Program-made: the position numbers and the translations under genes
NCBI GenBank assembly: GCA_900258555.1
Contig: LT984854.1
Location: 510,392 to 544,445 of the forward strand
DNA: 34,054 nucleotides
From: an uncultured Desulfobacterium sp.
GTDB taxonomy: Bacteria; Desulfobacterota; DSM-4660; Desulfatiglandales; Desulfatiglandaceae
Direction of reading: 5' to 3'
Notes under the pieces: generated by a model
Database searches by the model: none
Seen by the model: only the letters and a program-made list of their open reading frames with translations
Told to the model about the DNA's origin: nothing
Shown: positions 9,207 to 30,612 of the stretch, one piece after another
Numbering within the stretch: the first letter of the stretch is position 1
How the letters are laid out: every line of letters starts with the position of its first letter

Positions 9207-12200
9207 ATGGATTTTATAAGACTTAAAGGTGCACGCCAGAACAATCTTAAAAACCTGGATCTTGAGATCCCTCTAAACCGTATAACTGTAATTACCGGGG
9301 TCAGCGGTTCGGGAAAGTCATCCCTTGCCTTTGACACCCTCTATGCGGAGGGACAGAGGAGGTATATCGAGACCTTTTCCCCTTACGCCCGTCAGTTCAT
9401 GGACCGGATGGACAGGCCCCAGGTGGATTCAATCGAAGGGATACCACCTGCTATTGCCATTGACCGCAAGGACCCGGTCAGGACATCAAGGTCCACGGTC
9501 GGCACCATGACCGAGATCACCGATTATGCGAAGCTCCTCTATGCCAGACTTGGACAACTCTACTGCGGAAAGTGCGATAGACCCGTCGTCGCTGAGACCG
9601 CCCAGGATGTATGGGAGAGAATAAAAGTGCTGCCTGTCGGCTCCGAGGTGGTCATTTCTTTCCCATACAAGCACGACGGCAGTCCTGTTGATCAGGTTAG
9701 GTTGGAGTTGGGGGGCATGGGGTTTTTCAGGCACATTATTAATGGTGCGGTTCAACCGCTTGATGATTGGCAGCCCACTGCCGGTGTAGATATTGATGTT
9801 GTAGCGGACCGTCTGCGCATTAGCGGCCGGGAGAAATCGCGGATTATTGATTCTGCTGAGCAGGGCCTTCGATTCGGCGGGGGGAGGATTGATGTCTGGA
9901 CCGGAGAGGGGGGGAGGATTCCGTTTTCCGGTACCCTTGAATGCGCCCATTGCAGGATCTCCTATGGGGCGCCCATACCCAATCTGTTTTCCTTTAACAG
10001 CCCCATCGGCGCATGCAAAACCTGCCGCGGCTTCGGCAGAAATATTGATATTGATGTGGATCTGATCATCCCCGACATGGGCCTGTCCATTAATCAGGGA
10101 GTTATCAAGCCTTGGGGCGACAGGGAAAAATCCAGGATGGAATTTGAGGAACTGATCGCCTTCTGCCGGAAACACAAGATCCCAACCGATATGCCCTTTG
10201 GCCGTCTTAGTGCGCTACAGCAAAGGATGATCATTGACGGGACACCTGACTACTACGGGGTCAGGGGATTTTTCAAGTGGCTTGAGACCAAGACCTATAA
10301 GATGCATGTCAGGGTGTTTTTGTCCCGCTACCGTTCTTACACCACCTGCCCCGACTGTAAAGGTATGCGATTCAGGGAAGAGGCCCTGCTCTATCGCCTT
10401 GGCGGGGTCAACATCGGTGAGCTCTATGCGATGAACGTCAATGACGCCTCTGCCTTTTTTAATAGTCTCACCCTGCCCCAGGGAGATCACGCCGGCAGGC
10501 TGGTGTTAAACGAAATCAAGGGGAGGCTTAAATACCTGATTGATGTTGGAGTGGGCTACCTCACACTCGACAGACAGTCCCGCACGTTGTCCGGCGGCGA
10601 GGTTGAGCGGGTAGCCCTTGCATCGGCCCTGGGATCTTCCCTTGTAAACACCCTCTACGTGCTGGATGAGCCCAGCATCGGGCTCCATCCCAGGGACACC
10701 GCTCGTCTGATCAATATCTTAAAAGGCCTTCGTGACATAGGAAACACGGTTGTAGTGGTCGAGCACGACTATGAGATCATGACAAAGAGCGACTATGTCT
10801 TGGACATGGGGCCGGAGGCAGGAGAACACGGTGGAGAGGTGATGTACTTTGGCCCCACGAATGGCCTGAAAAATACGTTAACCGGCCAGTATGTTACGGC
10901 CGAACGTCAGATCCCTGTTCCTGAGGCGCGCAGGTCCGCAAAAAAAGCGCATTGGCTGACCGTAATTGGGGCACAAGAAAACAACTTAAAGGGCATTGAT
11001 GTCAGGATTCCTCTGGGGCTTTTTGTCTGCATTACTGGTGTATCAGGTTCCGGCAAATCCACACTGGCCGAAGAGATCATCTACAAGGCAATCAAGAGGG
11101 AAAAGGGGGACCCGCAGGGTCGTCCGGGCTTACATAGGGGAATCCTGGGGCTTGAGCATATCTCGGATGTATTGCTTGTGGATCAGCAGCCCATTGGACG
11201 CACACCAAGGGCGAATGCCCTTACATATACAAAGGCCTTGGACCCCATCCGTCGCATGCTGGCTGACACTGCCTACGCACGCGAACAGGGTGTAGAGGCA
11301 GGGCATTTTTCATTCAACACCCCTGGCGGCAGATGCGAGACGTGCGGCGGGGAGGGCTTTGAAAGGGTGGAGATGCAGTTTCTCTCCGATGTGTTTATCA
11401 CATGCCCCGATTGCGGCGGAAAGCGCTTTAAGGATGATGTGCTGAAGGTCACCTACGAAGGGAAAAACATCCATGACATCCTTTGCATGACCGTGTCCGA
11501 GGCCCTGGACTTTTTTGGCGGCCAGAAAAAAATCATAGAGGCCCTGATGCCCCTTTACATGGTGGGGTTGGGTTACATCAGGCTCGGCCAGCCTGTCAGC
11601 ACCCTTTCCGGCGGAGAGGCCCAAAGGATGAAACTATCAAGGTACATTAAGCCGGACAACAAAAACCACAGGCTCTTCATCTTTGACGAGCCGACCACAG
11701 GCCTCCATTTCCATGATATTGAAACACTTCTTAAGCCTTTAACTAACCTGGTTGAGGAAGGAAACACGGTGCTGGTTATTGAGCACAATATGGATGTGAT
11801 CAAGACCGCAGACTGGATAATTGACCTTGGCCCTGAAGGGGGCGAGGAAGGCGGCCGCATTGTGGTTGAAGGCCCGCCGGAGAAAGTGGCGCTCCACAAG
11901 GGCTCCCATACTGGCAGGTTTCTCAAGTCCTGCATTAAAGGCCGCACAGTGCCCTGGTCTTTGCCAGCCTTGGCCCAGTTCGTCTCAGAGCCCGTTTCCG
12001 GATACGGAGAGGTCATCGCCATAAAAGGTGCAAGGGAGCACAATTTAAAAAATATAAGCCTTTCAATTCCCCGCAATCAGTTAGTGGTGCTCACAGGGGT
12101 ATCTGGCTCAGGTAAGTCCTCCCTTGCCTTTGATATCATATTTGCCGAGGGTCAGCGCCGGTATCTTGAAAGCCTCACTCCCTATGTCAGGCAGTATATG

Positions 12201-14477
12201 AAGATACTGGAGAGGCCTGAGGTGGATGTGGTCACCGGCCTTCCCCCTACTGTCGCGATCGAGCAGCGGATAAGCCACGCGGGCAGGCGCTCAACAGTAG
12301 CCACCCTTACAGAGATCTATCACTTTTTGAGGCTCCTGTTCAGCAAGGTGGGAGACCAGCACTGCCCCGGCTGCGGCAGAAAAATGAACTTCCAGACTGC
12401 CACGGACGTTATTGCCATTATCCGAAAGACATGCAGGGACAAAAAGGCGATGATCTTGGCACCAAAAATAATCGGCAGAAAGGGGTTTCACAAGGATGTG
12501 TTCACACATGCCCTGCGCAAGGGATTTAATCTCTGCCGCATTGATGGGGAAATTAAGGCCATTGAGCAGGGAATGTCATTAAGCCGCTATCAGGAACACA
12601 CAATCGAGGTTGTGGTTGGGACCCTGCCTGCCAGGGACATGGCCGGGGTTGTGGACCTTGCACTGGAAGAGGGTAAAGGGACCCTGCTGGTGGTGGATAA
12701 TGAAGGCAATCAAAACACATTCAGCCTGAAAGGCATATGTCCCGCCTGCGGGCTCGGGCTTCCGGCACTGGACCCCAGACTCTTTTCATTCAACAGCCGC
12801 GCTGGTGCTTGCCCTGCCTGCAACGGGCTGGGGGTGATCGGAGATGAGGATGAAAATTATCAGACCTGCGGCCTATGCAACGGCAGCAGGCTAAAGGCCG
12901 AGGCCCTCTCCGTAAGGATCGGTGGATATTCCATTCGGGATATAGTGGGGCACCCTGCAAGGGAACTCCAGCATATTATAAAGAAGATCAGTTTTGATCG
13001 CAGGCAGTCGCAGATCGCAAAACCCATTATGGCGGAGATCATCGAACGGATAACCCTGCTAAACCGACTGGGGCTCGGTTACCTATCCCTGGCAAGAAGC
13101 GGAAACACCCTATCGGGCGGCGAGGCCCAGAGGGTGCGGCTGGCCGCCCAGTTGGGGTCAAATCTTACAGGTGTATGCTATATTCTGGATGAACCCACAA
13201 TAGGCCTTCATCCCAGAGACAGCCGTATGCTGCTCGACGCCCTAAAGGAACTGAAAGACAGGGGAAACACAGTCCTTGTGGTGGAGCATGATGAAGAGAC
13301 TATCAGGGAGGCGGATATCCTGATTGACCTGGGGCCCGGGCCCGGCCAAAAAGGCGGCAGGGTCGTGGGCACGGGATGCTTAAGCGATCTTAAAAAGGTG
13401 AGGGCCTCGGTCACGGCGGCCTGTTTTGACGGAATTCCCCACCAAATCACATCACGTCTAAGACCCGCATATGACATTGATTTCATCAGGGTGCTGGGTG
13501 CAGTGGAAAATAACCTCAAGGGTATTGATGTAGATTTTCCTTTGGGAAGATTTGTCTGTGTAACCGGAGTCTCAGGATCGGGCAAGTCCACGCTGGTAAA
13601 AGAGACCCTGTACAAGGGGGTATTAAACCGTTTGACCCACAAGAAAGATCCTGCTGGGGGGTGCAGGGATATTACAGGATGGCAGGCCCTGGACAGGGTC
13701 CTTGAGGTGGATCACAGCCCGATCGGACGCACGCCCCGTTCTGTCCCCGCCTCGTACATCGGGTTTCTGGATCAGATCAGGGGGCTATTCGCCATAACGC
13801 CGGAGGCAAGGGCAAGGGGATACAGGCCTGGAAGGTTTTCCTTCAATGTCAATGAAGGAAGGTGCTCTGCCTGCAGCGGCCAGGGGAGCCTCAAGGTGGA
13901 GATGAGTTTTCTGCCTGATGTATATATCCACTGCGAGCAGTGCAATGGGAAAAGATTTGATGCTGAGACCCTGGCGGTCACGTACAGGGGAAAAGACATC
14001 TCACAGGTGCTTGACCTTACATTTGAAGAGGCAATGGATTTTTTTAAGGCCGTGCCGCAGATCAGGGATGCAGTCCGGTTTGTCTGCGATATCGGTCTGG
14101 GATATATGCGCCTTGGTCAGCCAAGCCCCACACTTTCGGGCGGGGAGGCCCAAAGGATAAAGCTCGCCCAGGAGCTTAGCAGACGATCAAAGGGCCGCAC
14201 ACTCTATGTGCTGGACGAACCGACCACCGGGCTTCATCTGGCCGATGTCATGAATTTAATCACAGTACTCCAGGCCCTGGTGGATGCCGGAAACACCCTG
14301 GTGATCATAGAACACAACCTTGAGATCATAAAAGAGGCGGACTACATAATAGACTTGGGTCCCGAAGGGGGTTATGATGGTGGCCGTGTTGTAGCCAAGG
14401 GCACTCCTTTGGATCTGATCAAGCACCCAGGTGGCTCGCACACGGCAAAAAGCCTTAAGAAATATTGTAGGCGTTAA
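9207..14477 (+). CDS. uvrA: Double-length UvrA: tandem fusion of two UvrA units (excinuclease ABC subunit A)
   Basis: UvrA finds bulky DNA damage and loads UvrB. A normal UvrA has about 940 residues and two ABC ATPase modules. This one has 1756 residues and four. Walker A motifs (GVSGSGKS) begin at residues 31, 611, 964 and 1454. Each module has its LSGGE signature and a DEP[ST][TI]GLH Walker B with the catalytic Glu. Unit one runs to about residue 930. Unit two restarts at [13 protein letters not shown], parallel to [13 protein letters not shown] at the N-terminus. Paired-cysteine zinc modules are present in both units (CAHC...[22 protein letters not shown]...[18 protein letters not shown]). 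The reading frame is intact with no stop at the joint. Tandem UvrA of about 1800 residues is known in chlamydiae, so the fused form has precedent. The two halves have diverged clearly, so this is not a recent duplication. The start lacks a strong binding site. Transcription probably ends at 14574-14615. Confidence 0.93.
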
Positions 14478-19127: not shown

Positions 19128-19586
19128 ATGAGACTAAAATCTCTTGGTATTATTGCTGCTGGTTGCTCTGCGCTACTTTTTCTGGCCATGGGTCCTCTGA
19201 CTGCTGCCGACGCCCCGGCTGTTGTTACTGCCCCTGACACCATCAAAATGGAATCAAAGATTTACAAAAAGCACACAAAAGGCGTGGTAACATTTTCCCA
19301 CAAAAAACACGCCGAACACAAAGGTGTGAGCTGCACTGACTGTCACCATGTATATAAAGACGGAAAGAACACCTGGAAGCAAGGCGATCCGGTGCAGAAA
19401 TGTGATGCCTGTCATACTGAGACCGGCAAACCGCCAAAGGAAATGGCCAAAAAGGATGTTATTGCAAAATACCACAAAGAGGCCGTTCACGAGAACTGCA
19501 AGTCTTGCCATAAAAAGATGGTTGACAAGAACAGTGACATGGGCAAGGCATTGAAGGCCTGTACCGGTTGTCATCCAAAGAAGTAA
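19128..19586 (+). CDS. Periplasmic tetraheme cytochrome c3 (class III)
   Basis: Cytochrome c3 carries electrons between periplasmic hydrogenases or formate dehydrogenases and membrane complexes in sulfate reducers. The 152-residue precursor has a signal peptide (MRLKSLGIIAAGCSALLF..., cleavage near residue 27). Four CxxCH heme sites lie at residues 69-73 (CTDCH), 92-96 (CDACH), 124-128 (CKSCH) and 145-149 (CTGCH). Additional axial histidines are in VTFSHKKHAEH and YHKEAVHENC. Many lysines make the surface basic, as in type I c3. It is a single-gene unit with its own promoter and terminator, close to the dsr operon, whose DsrJ subunit is a possible redox partner. Confidence 0.93.
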   Translation: MRLKSLGIIAAGCSALLFLAMGPLTAADAPAVVTAPDTIKMESKIYKKHTKGVVTFSHKKHAEHKGVSCTDCHHVYKDGKNTWKQGDPVQKCDACHTETGKPPKEMAKKDVIAKYHKEAVHENCKSCHKKMVDKNSDMGKALKACTGCHPKK

Positions 19587-20205: not shown

Positions 20206-21372
20206 CTAGTGATTGGTTACCCCGACCTCTTCCTTTATTGAAATGGCTATCTTGTACAAAATTGTCAATACAAAAAATCCTGTAGCCCATATTGCAAGAC
20301 AGATTATTATCTCACGTGCAGTGGGCATGTACTCAATTACCTTATGAAAAGGATTAGGGATAAAACCTCCTATTACCAGTCCGACACCCTTATCTATCCA
20401 GGTGCCGATGAATACCGCCACGCATCCCAGCGCCAGGGTGGTCTCGTTTCTGCGCAATGCAGGTATGACCAGGAGGACGAGCGCCACAACACAGAAGAAG
20501 ACCGATGTCCACATCCAGGGGACAAGCCTTGAATGCCCATCAAGACCTGCATAGAGGTAGACAAGGGAGCTTTGATGCTCAGGTATGCCGCTGTAAAATG
20601 CGGTAAAGACCTCCAGAAGTAGGAAAAAGCAATTGAGTATCATGGCATAAGTGATAATCCCGCCGAGGGTCCTCAACTGCTCCTTTCCAGGGTCGAACTT
20701 GGTGAGCTTTCGAACCAGGAGACAGAGCAGCAACAGAAGAGATGGGCCTGCTGCAAAGGCCGAAGAAAGAAAGCGCGCGGCCATGATAGCGGTGATCCAC
20801 AGGTGTCTTCCAGGGATGCCAGCATACAGAAATGCCGTAACCGTATGGATGCTGAAGGCCCAAGGGATGGATACGTAGGCCAGAAACTTTACCCATTTTT
20901 TGTATTGCACTCCCTTCCTCTCTGCAGCCAGGACATTCCATCCAACAATAATATTAAGGAAAAGATATCCGTTTAACACGATCATATCCCAGAACAGGAT
21001 TGATCTGGGGCTTGGATACAGGATCACGTTCAGCATGCGGACCGGATTTCCTATATCCACGAAGATGAAGAGCAGGCACATGATAACCGCAGCAATGGCC
21101 AGAAACTCTCCCAGGATGGTTATCCTGCCGAATGCCTTATAGTCGTGGATATAATAGGGCAGCACCACCATCACGCCTCCTGCGGCAATACCGACAAGGT
21201 AGGTGAACTGTGCAATATAGAGACCCCAGGAAATATCCCTGCTCATGCCGGTGATCTTTAGTCCCTCATTGAACTGCGTAATGTAGCATACGACACCTAC
21301 GGTCATCACGGCAAGCAAAGAGCCTAATAACCACCAGTAACCTGGACTTCCTTTTAACGCTCGCTCAAGCAT
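20206..21372 (-). CDS. dsrP: DsrP, NrfD-type membrane subunit of the DsrMKJOP complex
   Basis: Integral membrane quinone-interacting subunit of the sulfite-reduction complex. The 388 residues have about ten hydrophobic spans, starting with SPGYWWLLGSLLAVMTVGVV. Typical NrfD/PsrC family stretches are GMSRDISWGLYIAQFTYLVG and then AGGVMVVLPYY, and PWAFSIHTVTAFLYAGIPGR. No heme or cluster motif is present, as expected. It is the last gene of dsrMKJOP, 7 bases after dsrO, with GAGG before its ATG. In this complex DsrP and DsrO form a module that exchanges electrons with menaquinone on the periplasmic side. Confidence 0.95.
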   Translation of the reverse strand: MLERALKGSPGYWWLLGSLLAVMTVGVVCYITQFNEGLKITGMSRDISWGLYIAQFTYLVGIAAGGVMVVLPYYIHDYKAFGRITILGEFLAIAAVIMCLLFIFVDIGNPVRMLNVILYPSPRSILFWDMIVLNGYLFLNIIVGWNVLAAERKGVQYKKWVKFLAYVSIPWAFSIHTVTAFLYAGIPGRHLWITAIMAARFLSSAFAAGPSLLLLLCLLVRKLTKFDPGKEQLRTLGGIITYAMILNCFFLLLEVFTAFYSGIPEHQSSLVYLYAGLDGHSRLVPWMWTSVFFCVVALVLLVIPALRRNETTLALGCVAVFIGTWIDKGVGLVIGGFIPNPFHKVIEYMPTAREIIICLAIWATGFFVLTILYKIAISIKEEVGVTNH

Positions 21373-21379
21373 AGTAACC

Positions 21380-22201
21380 TCATATCAAATAATATACTTT
21401 CGGTTCAGTGCCCAATTCGGTCTTTCGGCGAATAGAGTAACGGCTGTGCAACAGTTTTCTGATCTCTGAGGCTGGATCATTCAGATCACCGAAGATAAGG
21501 GCATGGACATTGATATTCTGACAAGTCTCAACACAGACAGGGATTTTGCCGACGCCCAGCCTCTCATCGCAGAAATTACACTTTTCAACCACACCTTTGG
21601 TCCTGGTCGGATAATTCATGTTGGTGGGGAAATCAGGGTTCAATTCCTTTGGCGCCTTTCTCGGGTCGCCCCAGTTAAAGCTACGAGACCCGAAAGGACA
21701 GGCCGCCATACAGAACCTGCACCCTATGCAGCGATGTAGATCCATCATCACCACCCCGTCTTCCCTCCTCCAGGTGGACTTTGTAGGGCAGACCCTGCAG
21801 CAGGGCGGGTTTTCACAGTGGTTACAGAGTGCAATAAAGGGCTTTTCTTTGACATCTTCACTAATAAACTCATTGTGCTGGCTGGGAAATAAGTGCTCGT
21901 AACTCTCCTGCCATATCCACTTCATCTCTTCCTTTATGTTGTCTCCAAAGTTAGGCACATTGTGCACCCGGTGGCAGGCGGCCATACACTGGTTGCATTT
22001 TCCTTTTTCCTGCTCCTCCAGGCACTTTTTCATATCAATGACCATTGCCCATTTCTTTTGATTGGTCGCAACAGGCACGGCGCTTCCTGCAGAGGCAAAG
22101 AGCTCCCCAGGGGCGAAGATGTCAACCGCTGTCTTTCCTCCCAGGCCAAAGGCTGCTGAAAGGCCTGCAATTTTTAAGAATTTTCTTCTGTCTACGGTCA
22201 T
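21380..22201 (-). CDS. dsrO: DsrO, periplasmic iron-sulfur subunit of DsrMKJOP
   Basis: DsrO is exported folded by the Tat system: MTVDRRKFLKIAGLSAAFGL carries the RRKFLK motif and a hydrophobic stretch. The 273 residues contain cysteine groups for [4Fe-4S] clusters: CNQCMAACHRVHN with an earlier Cys60, CNHCENPPCCRVCPTKST, CIGCRFCMAACPFG, and CNFCDERLGVGKIPVCVETC. The family usually binds three clusters, and the relation to NrfC/HmcB is clear. It overlaps the end of dsrJ by 4 bases (ATGA) and precedes dsrP. It passes electrons between DsrP and the DsrJ cytochrome. Confidence 0.95.
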   Translation of the reverse strand: MTVDRRKFLKIAGLSAAFGLGGKTAVDIFAPGELFASAGSAVPVATNQKKWAMVIDMKKCLEEQEKGKCNQCMAACHRVHNVPNFGDNIKEEMKWIWQESYEHLFPSQHNEFISEDVKEKPFIALCNHCENPPCCRVCPTKSTWRREDGVVMMDLHRCIGCRFCMAACPFGSRSFNWGDPRKAPKELNPDFPTNMNYPTRTKGVVEKCNFCDERLGVGKIPVCVETCQNINVHALIFGDLNDPASEIRKLLHSRYSIRRKTELGTEPKVYYLI

Positions 22202-22689
22202 TGCTTATCCTCCTTCGGCTGGACATGACAATCCCAGCAATAAGGGGAGACGCCAAGATAGTTGTGACACTCATCACAGAACTTTGACTTATTTGAATGG
22301 CACTCCATGCATGTTACCTGAAGGCTCTTATAATACGTCTTCCCAGTTGCGCCTGGGGTTGAGGCATCGCTTGAAGTAATAAAGCGCCTCCATTTCTCCA
22401 GTAGTTGTCCATCAAACTGGTTATTCCACCACAGGTCCTGATTGGCGTTAAAATACCTGCTTCCTTCCCGGACGACCTCCTGCCTCCAGTTGTCCAGCAA
22501 CTGCATGTGCCAGGCCGTCATATAGGGCTTGGGCGCTACACACTGTTTTGCCTCTTTGGCCTTTGGGGTAAGTTCAGGTACGGGTGCCTTCCCCGCCTTT
22601 CCGCCATTATAGATGAAAGGCGACAGAAACAGACAAAGTCCAATGATCAGACCGGGCAATATCGTCCCTCTATCATAGAAAGTCATCAT
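22198..22689 (-). CDS. dsrJ: DsrJ, membrane-anchored triheme cytochrome c of DsrMKJOP
   Basis: The 163-residue protein has an uncleaved-looking N-terminal membrane anchor (TILPGLIIGLCLFLSPFIY) and three CxxCH heme sites near the C-terminus: CMECH (127-131), CDECH (138-142) and CWDCH (151-155). Cys50 in AKQCVAPKPYM matches the position expected for the unusual cysteine ligand of one DsrJ heme described in other organisms. The gap between the anchor and the hemes is normal. It overlaps dsrK by 4 bases and dsrO by 4 bases, so the order K-J-O is translationally coupled. Confidence 0.95.
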   Translation of the reverse strand: MMTFYDRGTILPGLIIGLCLFLSPFIYNGGKAGKAPVPELTPKAKEAKQCVAPKPYMTAWHMQLLDNWRQEVVREGSRYFNANQDLWWNNQFDGQLLEKWRRFITSSDASTPGATGKTYYKSLQVTCMECHSNKSKFCDECHNYLGVSPYCWDCHVQPKEDKQ

Positions 22690-24308
22690 TCTTCCTCCTC
22701 CATTCCCGGGAGGGGCTCTCCACGAAGATTTGTGGTTCTTTCCTTTTCACCCTCAAAGACCAGGGCATTTGCGACCATCTCATGGACCCCGGTGACCGCA
22801 ACCTCAGGCACCCAGTAACCAAGGGATGTGGGCAGCACTGCCCTATCCAGGGCGCAGATACATGAGAGCATATTTACACCGTATTTTTCATGCACATGCT
22901 TTACCGCATTGGCCCTGGGAAGCCCGCCCCGCATCCTCAGTTCCATGTCTTCTCCTGCGTTCAGGCCTGAACCGCTACCGCAGCAGAACGTCTGCTCCCT
23001 GATGGTGTTGGGCGGCATTTCGTAAAAATTGTTACAGACATTTTTTATCACATACCTGGGCTCTTCGAGAAAGCCCATGCCCCTGGATGTATTGCACGAG
23101 TCATGAAAGGTGACTATGAGGTTATCATTACGGCTTGGATCGAGCTTCAGTCGGTTATTCCTCATAAGATCCGCGGTAAATTCTATTATGTGCACCATCT
23201 TGGTTCCGGTGGCGGTCTCAAACTTTGTACCGGTAATGGGTGACACGGGCTCCTCAAGAAAATCAGCCGGGCCGTTCCAGGTGTTCATGTACTGATGGAC
23301 GACCCTCCACATATGACCGCATTCCCCACCGAGTATCCATTTTACACCCAGTCTCTTGGCCTCTGCATACATCTTGGCATTGAGTCTTTTTGCCATCTCA
23401 TGAGAGGTGAAAAAACCGAAGTTTCCGCCTTCAGATGCATATGTGCTCCAGGTGATGTCCAGTCCCTGGGACTTCAGGTAGTGGAAGAGCATAAGATAGC
23501 CCATTGCGGTATATGTTCCTGGGTCGGCAAAAACATCCCCTGAAGGTGTGACAAACAGGATCTCAGCCCCTTTCCTGTTGAGATCCGGCTCTACCCTTAT
23601 GCCTGTAACTTCCTCGATTTCATCAACGAAGAAGTCAATCATATCCTTGTAGGCATGGGGTTGAATACCCAAATGATTGCCGGTCCGGTTGCAGTTGGCC
23701 ACGGGTCCAGCTATCCAGTCAATATTGAGACCCAAGAGATTGGTCAATTCCCTGCCCATGATGGTGATCTCCGCCATATCAATGCCATAGGGGCAGAACA
23801 CAGAGCAGCGCCTGCACTCAGTGCATTGGTAGAGATATGTCCACCATTCCTTGAGCACTTCCTCTGTGAGCTTTCTTGCACCGGCGATCTTTCCCAGTAT
23901 CTTTCCGGCGGCGGTAAACTTTTTTCTGTAGACCGACCGTAGAAGCTCTGCCCTCATCACCGGCATATTCTTCGGGTCACCTGAACCGATAAAAAAATGA
24001 CACTTGTCTGCGCAGGCCCCGCACCTGACACAGATATCCATAAAGAGCTTGAAGGAGCGATACTTATCAAGCCTGTCCTTCATGCCTTCTTCAACAATCT
24101 GCTCCCAGTTGTCAGGCAGTTTCCAGTCTTCATCCGCTGGGTTCCAATCCCTGGCGTTGGGCATGCCGACAGCGGCCAGGTTTTTGGCCTTTGCGCCATA
24201 ACAATATATGCCTGGCCTGATCTCGGCCGGGACATCCATCCAGCCTTCCATCAGGGGAGGTGCATGATCAATTTTTGATAATTCTTCTGGTTTGGGTGTG
24301 TCTGCCAT
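22686..24308 (-). CDS. dsrK: DsrK, HdrD-like cytoplasmic catalytic subunit of DsrMKJOP
   Basis: DsrK resembles the heterodisulfide reductase subunit HdrD and is thought to reduce the DsrC trisulfide made by sulfite reductase. In 540 residues there are two [4Fe-4S] motifs, CVRCGACADKCHFF (Cys93-103) and CTECRRCSVFCPYG (Cys162-172). CCG-type motifs that would hold the special catalytic cluster follow: HDSCNTSRG and CCGSGSGLN. No signal peptide is seen. AAGGAG stands 7 bases before the ATG. It follows dsrM after 20 bases and overlaps dsrJ by 4. dsrC and dsrAB are not in the window. Confidence 0.96.
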   Translation of the reverse strand: MADTPKPEELSKIDHAPPLMEGWMDVPAEIRPGIYCYGAKAKNLAAVGMPNARDWNPADEDWKLPDNWEQIVEEGMKDRLDKYRSFKLFMDICVRCGACADKCHFFIGSGDPKNMPVMRAELLRSVYRKKFTAAGKILGKIAGARKLTEEVLKEWWTYLYQCTECRRCSVFCPYGIDMAEITIMGRELTNLLGLNIDWIAGPVANCNRTGNHLGIQPHAYKDMIDFFVDEIEEVTGIRVEPDLNRKGAEILFVTPSGDVFADPGTYTAMGYLMLFHYLKSQGLDITWSTYASEGGNFGFFTSHEMAKRLNAKMYAEAKRLGVKWILGGECGHMWRVVHQYMNTWNGPADFLEEPVSPITGTKFETATGTKMVHIIEFTADLMRNNRLKLDPSRNDNLIVTFHDSCNTSRGMGFLEEPRYVIKNVCNNFYEMPPNTIREQTFCCGSGSGLNAGEDMELRMRGGLPRANAVKHVHEKYGVNMLSCICALDRAVLPTSLGYWVPEVAVTGVHEMVANALVFEGEKERTTNLRGEPLPGMEEEE

Positions 24309-24328: not shown

Positions 24329-25399
24329 TTATTCTTCCGCTTCTTTGGCTGGTTCCGAGTCAAGCCCCTTTTCAACCGGAAGCCCGGCCTCTATCATGTG
24401 TTCTCTGAACTCATTTTCGTAGGCCTCGTAGGTATGAAATTTTACCGGGTAGTTCCACGGGTTAACGTGTCTGACTATACGGCTGGTGTTGGCAAGGTTT
24501 CTTGTGGGGCTTAAAAATATCCCTGCCATATGACATAGTTTGCTAAATGGAAAATATGAGATTAGGACACATAAACAAAAAAGATGGACATAGAAAATTA
24601 CGCCGATACCGGCAGGTGCTACCGGGTGAAAGGTGAAGAGCCCTATGGCCAGCTCCTTGACAGCAGTGATGTCCACCCTGATGAGATATCTCATCAGTAT
24701 TCCGGTAGTACCCAGGGTAAGGATCAAAAACAGGGGGAAGTAATCTGCCGGAAGTGAAATATATCTGACCTGAGGGATGTAGATCCTCCTGAGAAGCAGA
24801 TATGTCAATGCCAGCATCAGGAGCATATCCGTCAGGTACACACCGGGGGCACCCAGGCCGTTTATAGGCAGAAGGCCCAACTGCATAAACCCGTCCAGTT
24901 TTTCAAGGATGAGGACGAATCCAGGCACCGGATCCATAAAGAACCTGAAATGCCTCAAAAAGATGACCAGAAATGAGTAATGAAACGCAAGGGCTGCAAG
25001 CCACAACCACTTTTCCCACTCGTAGTCTATCTTAGGGCCTGTTTCGGTGTTTCTGTATTCCAATTTGGTGTGTCTGAAAAGGGACCTGAAGGTGAGCACC
25101 TCAAAGATCATCCGGGCGACCACGCCATATGTGTTTTTGGGATTATCAATGGGGTTTGATTTGATCCATGGATACGAGAATTCCTGCCCTGCCGTCGTCG
25201 GTATACGGTAAGGCACCGGCGAACGGGACCAGTTCATAACACGATAAATCATTCCTATAACAAAAATAGCCAGGGCGGCGTATGGGACAATCACCCCAAA
25301 AAAGAAGTTGAGCTTCAACAACCCGACACCCACCAGGGGGATCATAACGACCGGCCCCATGCCAATGGCGGCAATCACCATACCAAGTATAAAGTTCAT
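24329..25399 (-). CDS. dsrM: DsrM, NarI-like diheme b membrane subunit of DsrMKJOP
   Basis: Integral membrane b-type cytochrome that oxidises menaquinol and passes electrons to DsrK. Of 356 residues, the first 50 form two hydrophobic spans and the middle carries a NarI-like set of further spans. Candidate heme histidines are in AALAFHYSFLVIFLRHFRFF and FYVHLFCLCVLISYFPFSKL followed by CHMAG. The C-terminal 60 residues are polar and charged (EFREHMIEAGLPVEKG). This matches the DsrM family in length and arrangement. It is the first structural gene of the operon, 54 bases after the RsbRD-domain gene. Confidence 0.95.
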   Translation of the reverse strand: MNFILGMVIAAIGMGPVVMIPLVGVGLLKLNFFFGVIVPYAALAIFVIGMIYRVMNWSRSPVPYRIPTTAGQEFSYPWIKSNPIDNPKNTYGVVARMIFEVLTFRSLFRHTKLEYRNTETGPKIDYEWEKWLWLAALAFHYSFLVIFLRHFRFFMDPVPGFVLILEKLDGFMQLGLLPINGLGAPGVYLTDMLLMLALTYLLLRRIYIPQVRYISLPADYFPLFLILTLGTTGILMRYLIRVDITAVKELAIGLFTFHPVAPAGIGVIFYVHLFCLCVLISYFPFSKLCHMAGIFLSPTRNLANTSRIVRHVNPWNYPVKFHTYEAYENEFREHMIEAGLPVEKGLDSEPAKEAEE

Positions 25400-25453: not shown

Positions 25454-25969
25454 TTACAATTCCGGGATTTCAATTTTCAGATTCGCCCTTTCCAGCAGCC
25501 TGGAGACCTGGTTCGTCGTTTCAATTACCCTCAGTTCATAAATCCTTTGCCTGCACTGAGAGTATATGTCAAGGGCCATAAGGGCTGCATTGTCTATTCG
25601 TTCATCTAGCGATTCTATCTGATCTCTGAGATCATCCGCCTTAAGATCCGACCCGAGTTCCTTTTTTATAAGCCTCTTAAGGGCAAACACAAAACCCACT
25701 GCCTGAGAAGGCTTAAAATCCTGTACGGCCCTGATCCGGACGATGTTGTCAAGGCTCCTTGCGATCTTGTCCGTGTCATTATCAGAGGTCAACTGATCGT
25801 AAAGGATCTCCAGATCCTCTGCGATTGTCTGGCCGACTGGGTTTGAAAAGCGATCCTTCTCTTTTTTCAAGAACCGCTGCGTGTCAATGGGATAGGTACT
25901 GATGACAATATCGCGCCATTTTTTTATGATGGAGGACCTGTTGTCAGACAGAAGATTTTTTAAGCTCAT
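25454..25969 (-). CDS. RsbRD N-terminal-domain protein leading the dsr operon
   Basis: A 171-residue, largely helical cytoplasmic protein. It begins MSLKNLLSDNRSSIIKKWRD and continues PIDTQRFLKKEKDRFSNPVG, QTIAEDLEILYDQL, LDNIVRIRAVQDFKPSQAVG and FVFALKRLIKKELG. The pattern matches the RsbRD N-terminal domain, a globin-like sensor fold found at the start of stressosome RsbR proteins, but the STAS domain is missing. Such genes are often found directly ahead of dsrM in sulfate reducers, so a role in sensing or regulating the Dsr complex is reasonable, not shown. ATG at 25969 is preferred to a GTG two codons upstream. It is first in the operon after the promoter at 26058-26087. Confidence 0.8.
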   Translation of the reverse strand: MSLKNLLSDNRSSIIKKWRDIVISTYPIDTQRFLKKEKDRFSNPVGQTIAEDLEILYDQLTSDNDTDKIARSLDNIVRIRAVQDFKPSQAVGFVFALKRLIKKELGSDLKADDLRDQIESLDERIDNAALMALDIYSQCRQRIYELRVIETTNQVSRLLERANLKIEIPEL

Positions 25970-26057
25970 TTTCACGCACGTTTTTTACGTCTCCGGAGTC
26001 AACGATTTGTAAATAAACTGCTAAAGCCAGACTCCGACCTCTGGTATTTACCGCGCC

Positions 26058-26087
26058 CTTATAGATAAATCTTTTATTTTGTGTCAA
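26058..26087 (-). promoter_or_regulatory. Sigma70-type promoter for the dsrMKJOP operon
   Basis: Minus-strand TTGACA (26087-26082), an 18-base spacer and TATAAG (26063-26058), about 88 bases before the RsbRD-gene start. The leader holds two small symmetric elements that could be operator or RNA structure: CCAGA-N8-TCTGG and the palindrome CTCCGGAG at about 25991-25998. Confidence 0.65.
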
Positions 26088-29601: not shown

Positions 29602-29751
29602 ACCTGCACAGGCGTTTTTTCCATTCACTTATCCTGACTCCTCCTGTAACTAGAGAAAACTTCAAAGATTATCACACAATGTCATGGGCTTGTTCGAAAT
29701 TCCTTGTTCAATATTCGATATTCTTAAGTTAATGACATTGGATTGTCACTT

Positions 29752-30612
29752 ATGATCCTTTCCTTTCACCCGTGCCTTGAAGCAGACGCCAACATAATCC
29801 TTGGATCAAGACGCCTTAATAATAATGATCTTGATCTGATCAGAAACGCTGACGCGATTATTCTCCCGCAGGCAAGGCCTGAGGAGATATACAAGGCATG
29901 CTCAGGGTGCGGCGCGCTCATGTTTCCAAACTATGAGGCCAGGTTTAAGTATCCGGGAAAGATCGGACAGGCTCGGCTTTTTAAAGAGCATGGACTTCCC
30001 CACCCGGAAACAATATGCTGGCGGTCAGTCGAGCAATACGAACAATCATTTCCGGCCGGATCAGAGTCTCTTCCGCACAGCCTGCCTTTTTTAATAAAGG
30101 ACGACAAGACACATGAGGCGGAAGGAGTCTTTCTTGTGGAGGACAGAAGCGGGCTTGAAAGCTCGCTTGGGTTTTTAAGACAATGGGAGAGTTCAGGCCG
30201 CTCAGGGTTTATTACGCAGGCATTTGTCCCATCAGAGGGCAATGTGCTCAGGGTTGTCATAGTCGGCAAGAGGATCATCTCATACTGGAAACGGCCATCA
30301 GATTCAGTGGGGCTTATAACAACCATCAGCAGGGGCGCAAAGGTTGACCATCACTGGAGGCCTGATCTCAAGGAAAAGGGACATATTGCCGTGAGCAGGC
30401 TTGCGTTGATGTCCGGAATTAATCTTGCGGCGGCAGATCTGGTCTTTTCCATGTTGGAAAAAGAACCCGAGCCCTTTTTTCTGGAGATCAACTACTACTT
30501 CGGTAGGGAAGGTCTCGGAGGGTCTCAAAGCTATTATCAGATGCTGTATCAGGCCGTTCGTAACTGGCTGAAAGATGGGGGTTATGATCCTGATGCGGTA
30601 AAGCTTGTGTAA
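29752..30612 (+). CDS. Orphan ATP-grasp family protein (RimK/glutathione-synthase-like)
   Basis: The 286-residue protein has an N-terminal pre-ATP-grasp domain (ADANIILGSRRLNNNDLDLI) and the ATP-binding parts: PFLIKDDKTHEAEGVFLVED, FITQAFVPSEGNVLRVVIVG and FFLEINYYFGREG, the last holding the metal-binding Glu and Asn. The fold is that of carboxylate-amine ligases; the substrate is not visible. No biosynthetic partner flanks it: frdB is upstream behind a terminator, and truA is convergent. ATG at 29752 is taken; an in-frame TTG at 29743 is possible, and neither has a good binding site. The 150 bases before it hold AT-rich sequence with no clear promoter. Confidence 0.7.
   Translation: MILSFHPCLEADANIILGSRRLNNNDLDLIRNADAIILPQARPEEIYKACSGCGALMFPNYEARFKYPGKIGQARLFKEHGLPHPETICWRSVEQYEQSFPAGSESLPHSLPFLIKDDKTHEAEGVFLVEDRSGLESSLGFLRQWESSGRSGFITQAFVPSEGNVLRVVIVGKRIISYWKRPSDSVGLITTISRGAKVDHHWRPDLKEKGHIAVSRLALMSGINLAAADLVFSMLEKEPEPFFLEINYYFGREGLGGSQSYYQMLYQAVRNWLKDGGYDPDAVKLV

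Follow-up and report, generated by a model that had tools for sequence, protein, structure and literature searches.

The window analysed here, a stretch of 34,054 nucleotides from an uncultured Desulfobacterium sp., carries on its minus strand an ATG-start open reading frame of 171 amino acids at 25454–25969, exactly where the original prediction had placed a gene; a GTG two codons upstream, at 25975, is an alternative start. A Pfam scan of the protein returned a single domain, RsbRD_N (PF14361; score 82.5 bits, cut-off 24.3), which spans residues 3–105 (25655–25963, minus strand). The protein ends 66 residues past this domain, and the same scan found neither a STAS domain nor any DNA-binding or other output domain. 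Both the presence of an RsbRD sensor-like domain and its isolation from STAS, as originally predicted, are thus borne out. Behind it, in the same orientation, come five genes: dsrM (24329–25399; NarI-like membrane cytochrome b; NF038037, 526 bits), dsrK (22686–24308; HdrD-like Fe-S protein; NF045796, 729 bits), dsrJ (22198–22689; cytochrome c; NF038038, 157 bits), dsrO (21380–22201; exported Fe-S subunit; NF045797, 284 bits), and dsrP (20206–21372; NrfD-like membrane protein; NF045798, 487 bits). Each of them scores above its NCBIfam equivalog cut-off, which confirms the predicted position at the head of dsrMKJOP.

The gap between the 171-residue gene and dsrM measures 54 nt, and a scan of this gap for terminator-like sites returned none. 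On the other side, the upstream neighbors are divergent genes for the cytochrome b and the flavoprotein of a fumarate reductase/succinate dehydrogenase, which makes our gene the first of its operon in this genome. The sequence TTGACA-18-TATAAG lies upstream on the minus strand at 26058–26087; it was noticed by eye and is unscored, since the scan rule requires a T at the end of the second hexamer. The sigma-70 scan itself listed no promoter-like site on the minus strand upstream of the gene, and its total counts were about those obtained with shuffled sequences.

Three other genes of the window, all on the plus strand, may be mentioned. A class III cytochrome c (Pfam; 19128–19586) lies near the end of the dsr operon, on the opposite strand, and its nearest NCBIfam model, TmcA, was matched below the cut-off. 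A RimK-like ATP-grasp protein (29743–30612), slightly below the Pfam cut-off, is encoded downstream of the fumarate reductase genes. Finally, an ORF of 1756 codons at 9207–14477 apparently encodes a double-length UvrA, in view of its two UvrA interaction stretches and numerous ATPase matches.

As judged by synteny and homology, the 171-residue gene is almost certainly dsrT, with which the dsrTMKJOP block usually begins. According to Table 2 of PMC5812927, the dsrT tag adjoins that of dsrM in the Nitrospirota genomes Nbg-4, GWF2-44-13, CG1-02-44-142, and RBG-13-39-12. At the corresponding loci in our samples (L119, L103, L138, and L131, respectively), the gene immediately ahead of dsrM encodes a relative of the window protein, and it is from this synteny with the published Nitrospirota genes, together with their homology to ours, that the assignment follows; the loci were paired with the published ones on genome names and the order of genes rather than on protein accessions. 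At two of them (L103 and L119), the ORF that precedes the dsrT relative is presumably DsrC-like, to judge by its C-terminal motif. This agrees with the order of genes in the table of PMC5812927.

Published work already contained this gene under its name and in this position; the original prediction missed both the name and the literature on dsrT, while its reading of domain, missing STAS, position, and conservation has stood. Passages in two of the papers describe dsrT as a neighbor of dsrM in several lineages of bacteria (PMC10504309) and dsrTMKJOP as a single operon in most sulfate reducers (PMC13047784). In 2024, the function of DsrT was called unknown in a paper which also states that dsrT was not found in Pseudomonadota (PMC11406059). 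What is new may be confined to the link with a fold. In the open literature, to which most subscription journals do not belong, we found no paper that joins DsrT, or dsrM and sulfate, with RsbR, and none among the matches listed combines DsrT with RsbR, the stressosome, or the term globin-like; the relationship of DsrT to RsbR-type sensor domains may thus be unreported there. Nor do the passages cited here describe the T-K-J-O-P-M gene order that is presented below. The study behind the published statement on the role of DsrT is reportedly Holkenbrink 2011. A need of DsrT for sulfur metabolism is mentioned in PMC6018796, and the expression "based on homology" in a passage of PMC10504309 suggests that some relation had been noted earlier.

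The original prediction proposed that conservation of the gene next to dsrM be checked across sulfate reducers, and the opposite outcome, a gene usually absent from close relatives, is not what was found. The sample from the phylum of the window comprises 297 genomes; 138 of them have DsrM above the cut-off, and at least 127 of these carry an RsbRD_N gene immediately ahead of dsrM and in the same orientation. Three more (G067, G087, and G259) have dsrM at the end of a record, and their RsbRD gene is found, whole or in part, on the far side of the origin or where another contig ends. In G022 and G059, dsrM is adjoined by a divergent relative that has no Pfam match. Both copies are rows of alignment A1, and probably of the DsrT HMM, so that their HMM scores are circular and the independent evidence for them consists of their position and of BLASTP from the window protein (E-values of 1.4e-9 and 8.2e-15).

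The same arrangement recurs in two other phyla. In the Nitrospirota sample (148 genomes), RsbRD_N adjoins dsrM in 57 of 58 cases, and the remaining dsrM stands at the start of a contig; counted per genome, 57 have both genes, one has DsrM only, two have RsbRD_N only, and 88 have neither. A third sample, 249 genomes from the phylum to which a Clostridiales-titled MAG belongs, includes 24 with DsrM above the cut-off, all 24 of which have RsbRD_N, followed by dsrM in six and by dsrK in 18. Ten of these 24 loci were inspected in full: each has all six genes, in the order T-M-K-J-O-P in six and T-K-J-O-P-M in four, and in the latter dsrT holds the front of the block even with dsrM moved to its tail. 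Conversely, 25 of the 26 genomes of this phylum that have only sub-cut-off relatives of DsrM lack RsbRD_N (the exception is G569). Among the best 80 of 368 relatives in a search of the whole collection, the next gene is dsrM in 75 cases and dsrK in three, and two relatives lie at the end of a contig. Its recurrence in samples of three phyla places the arrangement far beyond chance. Spacing is often tight as well: for 158 distinct pairs of dsrT and dsrM, gene starts being taken as first start codons and distances being approximate, we counted 20 overlaps of 4 nt, 100 gaps of 0–60 nt, and nine gaps of more than 150 nt. In one genome (G003; loci L208 and L080), dsrT occurs twice, on separate contigs; a dsrM fragment follows one copy and dsrK the other.

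The association is nevertheless not obligatory. The rule that DsrT is present with DsrMKJOP and absent without it holds in the Nitrospirota sample, and its exceptions in the phylum of the window are three of the 138 DsrM genomes (G028, G064, and G221, of one family), which have a full dsrMKJOP, no match to the DsrT model, and only weak matches to RsbRD_N. In three others (G170, G216, and G276), a dsrT copy is present away from dsrM. Taken together, these six genomes establish that DsrT need not adjoin the genes of the complex and can be absent.

Some of these loci have particular neighborhoods. In the family of G028, G064, and G221 (loci L062, L065, and L066), the usual dsrT site before dsrMKJOP is occupied by a second DsrK-like gene and, ahead of it, by a gene of approximately 311–314 codons, whose product in L062 is NarI-like. 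In family f53 (G216, G276, and G146; loci L300, L301, and L302), dsrT lies 2.6–3.5 kb from, or immediately behind, a divergent DsrK-like gene (28–30% identity to DsrK) with a neighbor that resembles a membrane subunit. In G216 and G276, the dsrT copy is followed by a gene for a protein with an FMN-reductase domain.

Residue conservation was counted in 177 of the 179 distinct sequences encoded before dsrM or dsrK (those of 140–260 amino acids), and 12 sequences encoded before neither gene were left out. The pair Asn43-Pro44 (25838–25843, minus strand) is invariant in all 177. Other positions are nearly so: Y26 and K98 (99%), A81 and Q83 (98%), and R140 and E141 (96%), the window protein itself having Gln at position 141. 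Cys139 (codon at 25553–25555, minus strand) is found in 157 of the 177 proteins (89%); 20 are without it, five of which have Tyr within one common motif. These sequences were compared with five proteins in which Pfam confirmed both RsbRD_N and STAS. The latter retain W18 and R80 (5/5) and, in four cases, K98 and E141, and their STAS domain comes after the region of the C-terminal helix, where DsrT ends shortly after. In none of the five is Asn43-Pro44 found (four have a gap and the fifth Asn-Met), Q83 occurs in only one of them, and Cys139 in none of the four whose aligned stretch covers the site. In a tree of 83 of the 177 DsrT and six other RsbRD_N proteins, DsrT forms a group of its own with moderate support (0.76).

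The AlphaFold2 model of the window protein (mean pLDDT 91.4) has seven helices, the last of which is long and, according to DSSP, covers residues 112–161 (25487–25636, minus strand). With VIA-align, the closest structures to this model were the sporulation inhibitors 3pmc and 3pmd (Z 12.6 and 11.6), followed by DosC (11.0), RsbR-N (10.8), and the stressosome protein 3zta (10.7), with phycobiliproteins scoring up to 10.2. All of these values are below 13, the level that the tool flags as possibly common for helical models, and no Foldseek match reached E ≤ 0.001 (E ≥ 0.18), so that a globin-like fold of DsrT is likely rather than proven. A sequence search of solved structures, with either the protein or its profile, gave nothing significant. 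Membership in the RsbRD_N family, which is seen in the sequence, is firmer ground than the predicted fold.

A globin-like fold could point to a haem-based redox sensor. Such a function is unlikely, since the 177 DsrT proteins have no conserved histidine: the best histidine column reaches 42/177, and 37 of the 177, as well as the window protein, contain no histidine at all.

The family relationship also raises the question of whether DsrT might be an RsbR input module on its own, passing signals to a stressosome or another partner-switching pathway, as the Pfam domain and the residues W18, R80, K98, and E141 that it has in common with RsbRD_N-STAS proteins would allow. We consider this highly improbable. 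DsrT lacks STAS, stands apart in the tree, and carries Asn43-Pro44 and Cys139, which the RsbR types compared do not have. In addition, the genome, which is 98.9% complete, has one match to STAS (PF01740, the one model to which the search for partners was limited), and this match is inside a sulfate permease, which argues against a stressosome partnership in this organism. The second and last RsbRD_N match of the genome lies on a different contig, where it forms the N-terminal part of a PAS-histidine kinase.

A different proposal is that DsrT regulates the transcription of dsrMKJOP, for example by switching a partner protein. Regulation of dsrMKJOP or of Dsr gene expression by DsrT appears as a possibility in passages of PMC10504309 and PMC13047784 and as a fact in PMC12948486. 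Its relatives include the sensor domains of RsbR-type proteins and of a histidine kinase, and the first place in the operon, which dsrT holds here, is common for regulators. However, the published statements, in the passages concerned, rest on homology or on citation of other work, DsrT has no DNA-binding or output domain, and the only STAS partner that the PF01740 search could offer is the sulfate permease. On balance, a transcriptional role seems unlikely to us.

Similar doubt applies to an assembly chaperone, a counterpart of the NarJ/TorD type that would serve in haem or Fe-S loading or in the proof-reading of export, for instance that of DsrO. Several observations are compatible with such a chaperone: DsrT is a small, all-helical protein encoded beside a NarI-like cytochrome b, the genomes with only sub-cut-off DsrM relatives mentioned above almost all lack RsbRD_N, and, according to a passage of PMC10504309, the appearance of dsrT goes with the full DsrMKJOP. 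A lower expression of dsrT, reported for Desulfurivibrio in PMC13047784, would suit a chaperone and counts against a stoichiometric subunit; for Ca. Electronema, the paper lists dsrTMK together. A distance-tree test on 60 complete operons gave partial correlations of DsrT of 0.44 with DsrO, 0.31 with DsrM, 0.10 with DsrP, 0.02 with DsrJ, and -0.10 with DsrK; this test is rough, the gene starts being those of the longest ORFs, and nothing was made to rest on it. On the other side, RsbRD_N is the sole Pfam match, and G028, G064, and G221 encode the complex but nothing that matches the DsrT model. The fold matches listed are sensors, globins, and phycobiliproteins; TorD/NarJ-like proteins are not among them, which was not counted as evidence against a chaperone.

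As to the partner of DsrT within the complex, the adjacency of dsrT and dsrK suggested DsrK itself, a candidate that the distance-tree test did not support, DsrT tracking DsrO and DsrM best. Another possible partner is DsrMK without DsrJOP. The proximity of dsrT to a second, divergent DsrK-like gene in the f53 genomes fits this possibility, as do the cable bacteria, for which passages of PMC13047784 describe dsrTMKJ together with dsrOP homologues elsewhere. Against it, the ten inspected loci of the Clostridiales-titled phylum all have the full MKJOP set, and RsbRD_N is missing from 25 of the 26 genomes of that phylum in which DsrM is represented by weak relatives.

We return to the complex as a whole. 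The reading that we favor, with chances that we put at about even, is that DsrT is a cytosolic accessory protein that acts on DsrMKJOP, by regulation or by assembly, and the odds are equally balanced on the narrower point of whether its role concerns the complex itself rather than transcription. The argument for an action on the complex combines three elements: the absence of an output or DNA-binding domain, the frequent close coupling to the gene of the first membrane or Fe-S subunit, and the fact that dsrT travels with the complex even into the Chlorobi, which oxidize sulfur (according to a passage of PMC10504309). DsrT would then follow the type of complex and not the direction of flux. Opposed to this are the preference for regulation in the published passages (PMC10504309, PMC13047784, and PMC12948486), the three genomes with dsrMKJOP and no DsrT match, and the three that carry dsrT elsewhere.

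On this accessory-protein model, DsrT is a soluble RsbRD_N protein that lacks STAS, is predicted to fold like a globin without haem, and ends in a conserved helix; it would work after translation, on the cytoplasmic side, as a dedicated partner of DsrMKJOP. Produced alongside DsrM or DsrK, it would dock onto the complex, in the simplest case onto DsrMK. Once docked, it could help to assemble or stabilize the complex, or tune its activity according to thiol state or the ligand bound; a route through a stressosome is probably not used in this organism. Regulation and assembly are inseparable on present evidence, and ligand sensor, redox sensor, and assembly factor, as put forward in the original prediction, are all roles that DsrT may have.

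A bolder version makes DsrT a globin without haem. Sulfide, sulfane sulfur, or a membrane lipid or quinone-like compound would be the ligand that it senses, and it would gate DsrMKJOP, the terminal reductase, directly. An RsbR-type sensor would then have been rewired from the stressosome to serve a respiratory enzyme, and Cys139, which lies on the output helix, could act as a thiol switch in the majority of lineages. We regard this as quite improbable, and the 20 of 177 sequences without Cys139 weaken the case for the thiol switch.

Sulfate respiration ends at the membrane complex DsrMKJOP, and the genes of this complex have a remarkably faithful companion in dsrT, which stays at the front of the block even in the T-K-J-O-P-M order of the Clostridiales-titled phylum. 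To describe it as an RsbR-type sensor domain with no output, no conserved haem ligand, and no stressosome partner found here replaces a vague "regulator" with two testable choices, an action on the complex or an action on its expression.

Among known systems, the closest is DsrT of sulfate reducers, Nitrospirota, and Chlorobi, which in the named Nitrospirota genomes stands directly before dsrM, as does the window gene. The window protein has 36–54% identity to 40 of the 43 relatives aligned and 20–30% to the other three. The upstream neighbor of the window gene is the divergent fumarate reductase/succinate dehydrogenase set rather than dsrC. The N-terminal sensor domain of the stressosome proteins RsbR/RsbRD (PF14361; PDB 2bnl) is related by Pfam and resembles the DsrT model over 129 aligned residues at 10% identity, but the RsbR sensor continues into a C-terminal STAS domain. 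The globin-coupled sensors DosC (4zva) and HemAT (1or4; Z 9.6, also below 13) have the globin fold that is predicted for DsrT and bind haem through a proximal histidine, a residue for which DsrT has no conserved equivalent. The best structural matches, pXO2-61 and pXO1-118 (3pmc and 3pmd), have 14 and 12% identity to DsrT and belong to an unrelated pathway; like DsrT, they have no output domain, and both are free-standing sensor domains that bind a fatty acid.
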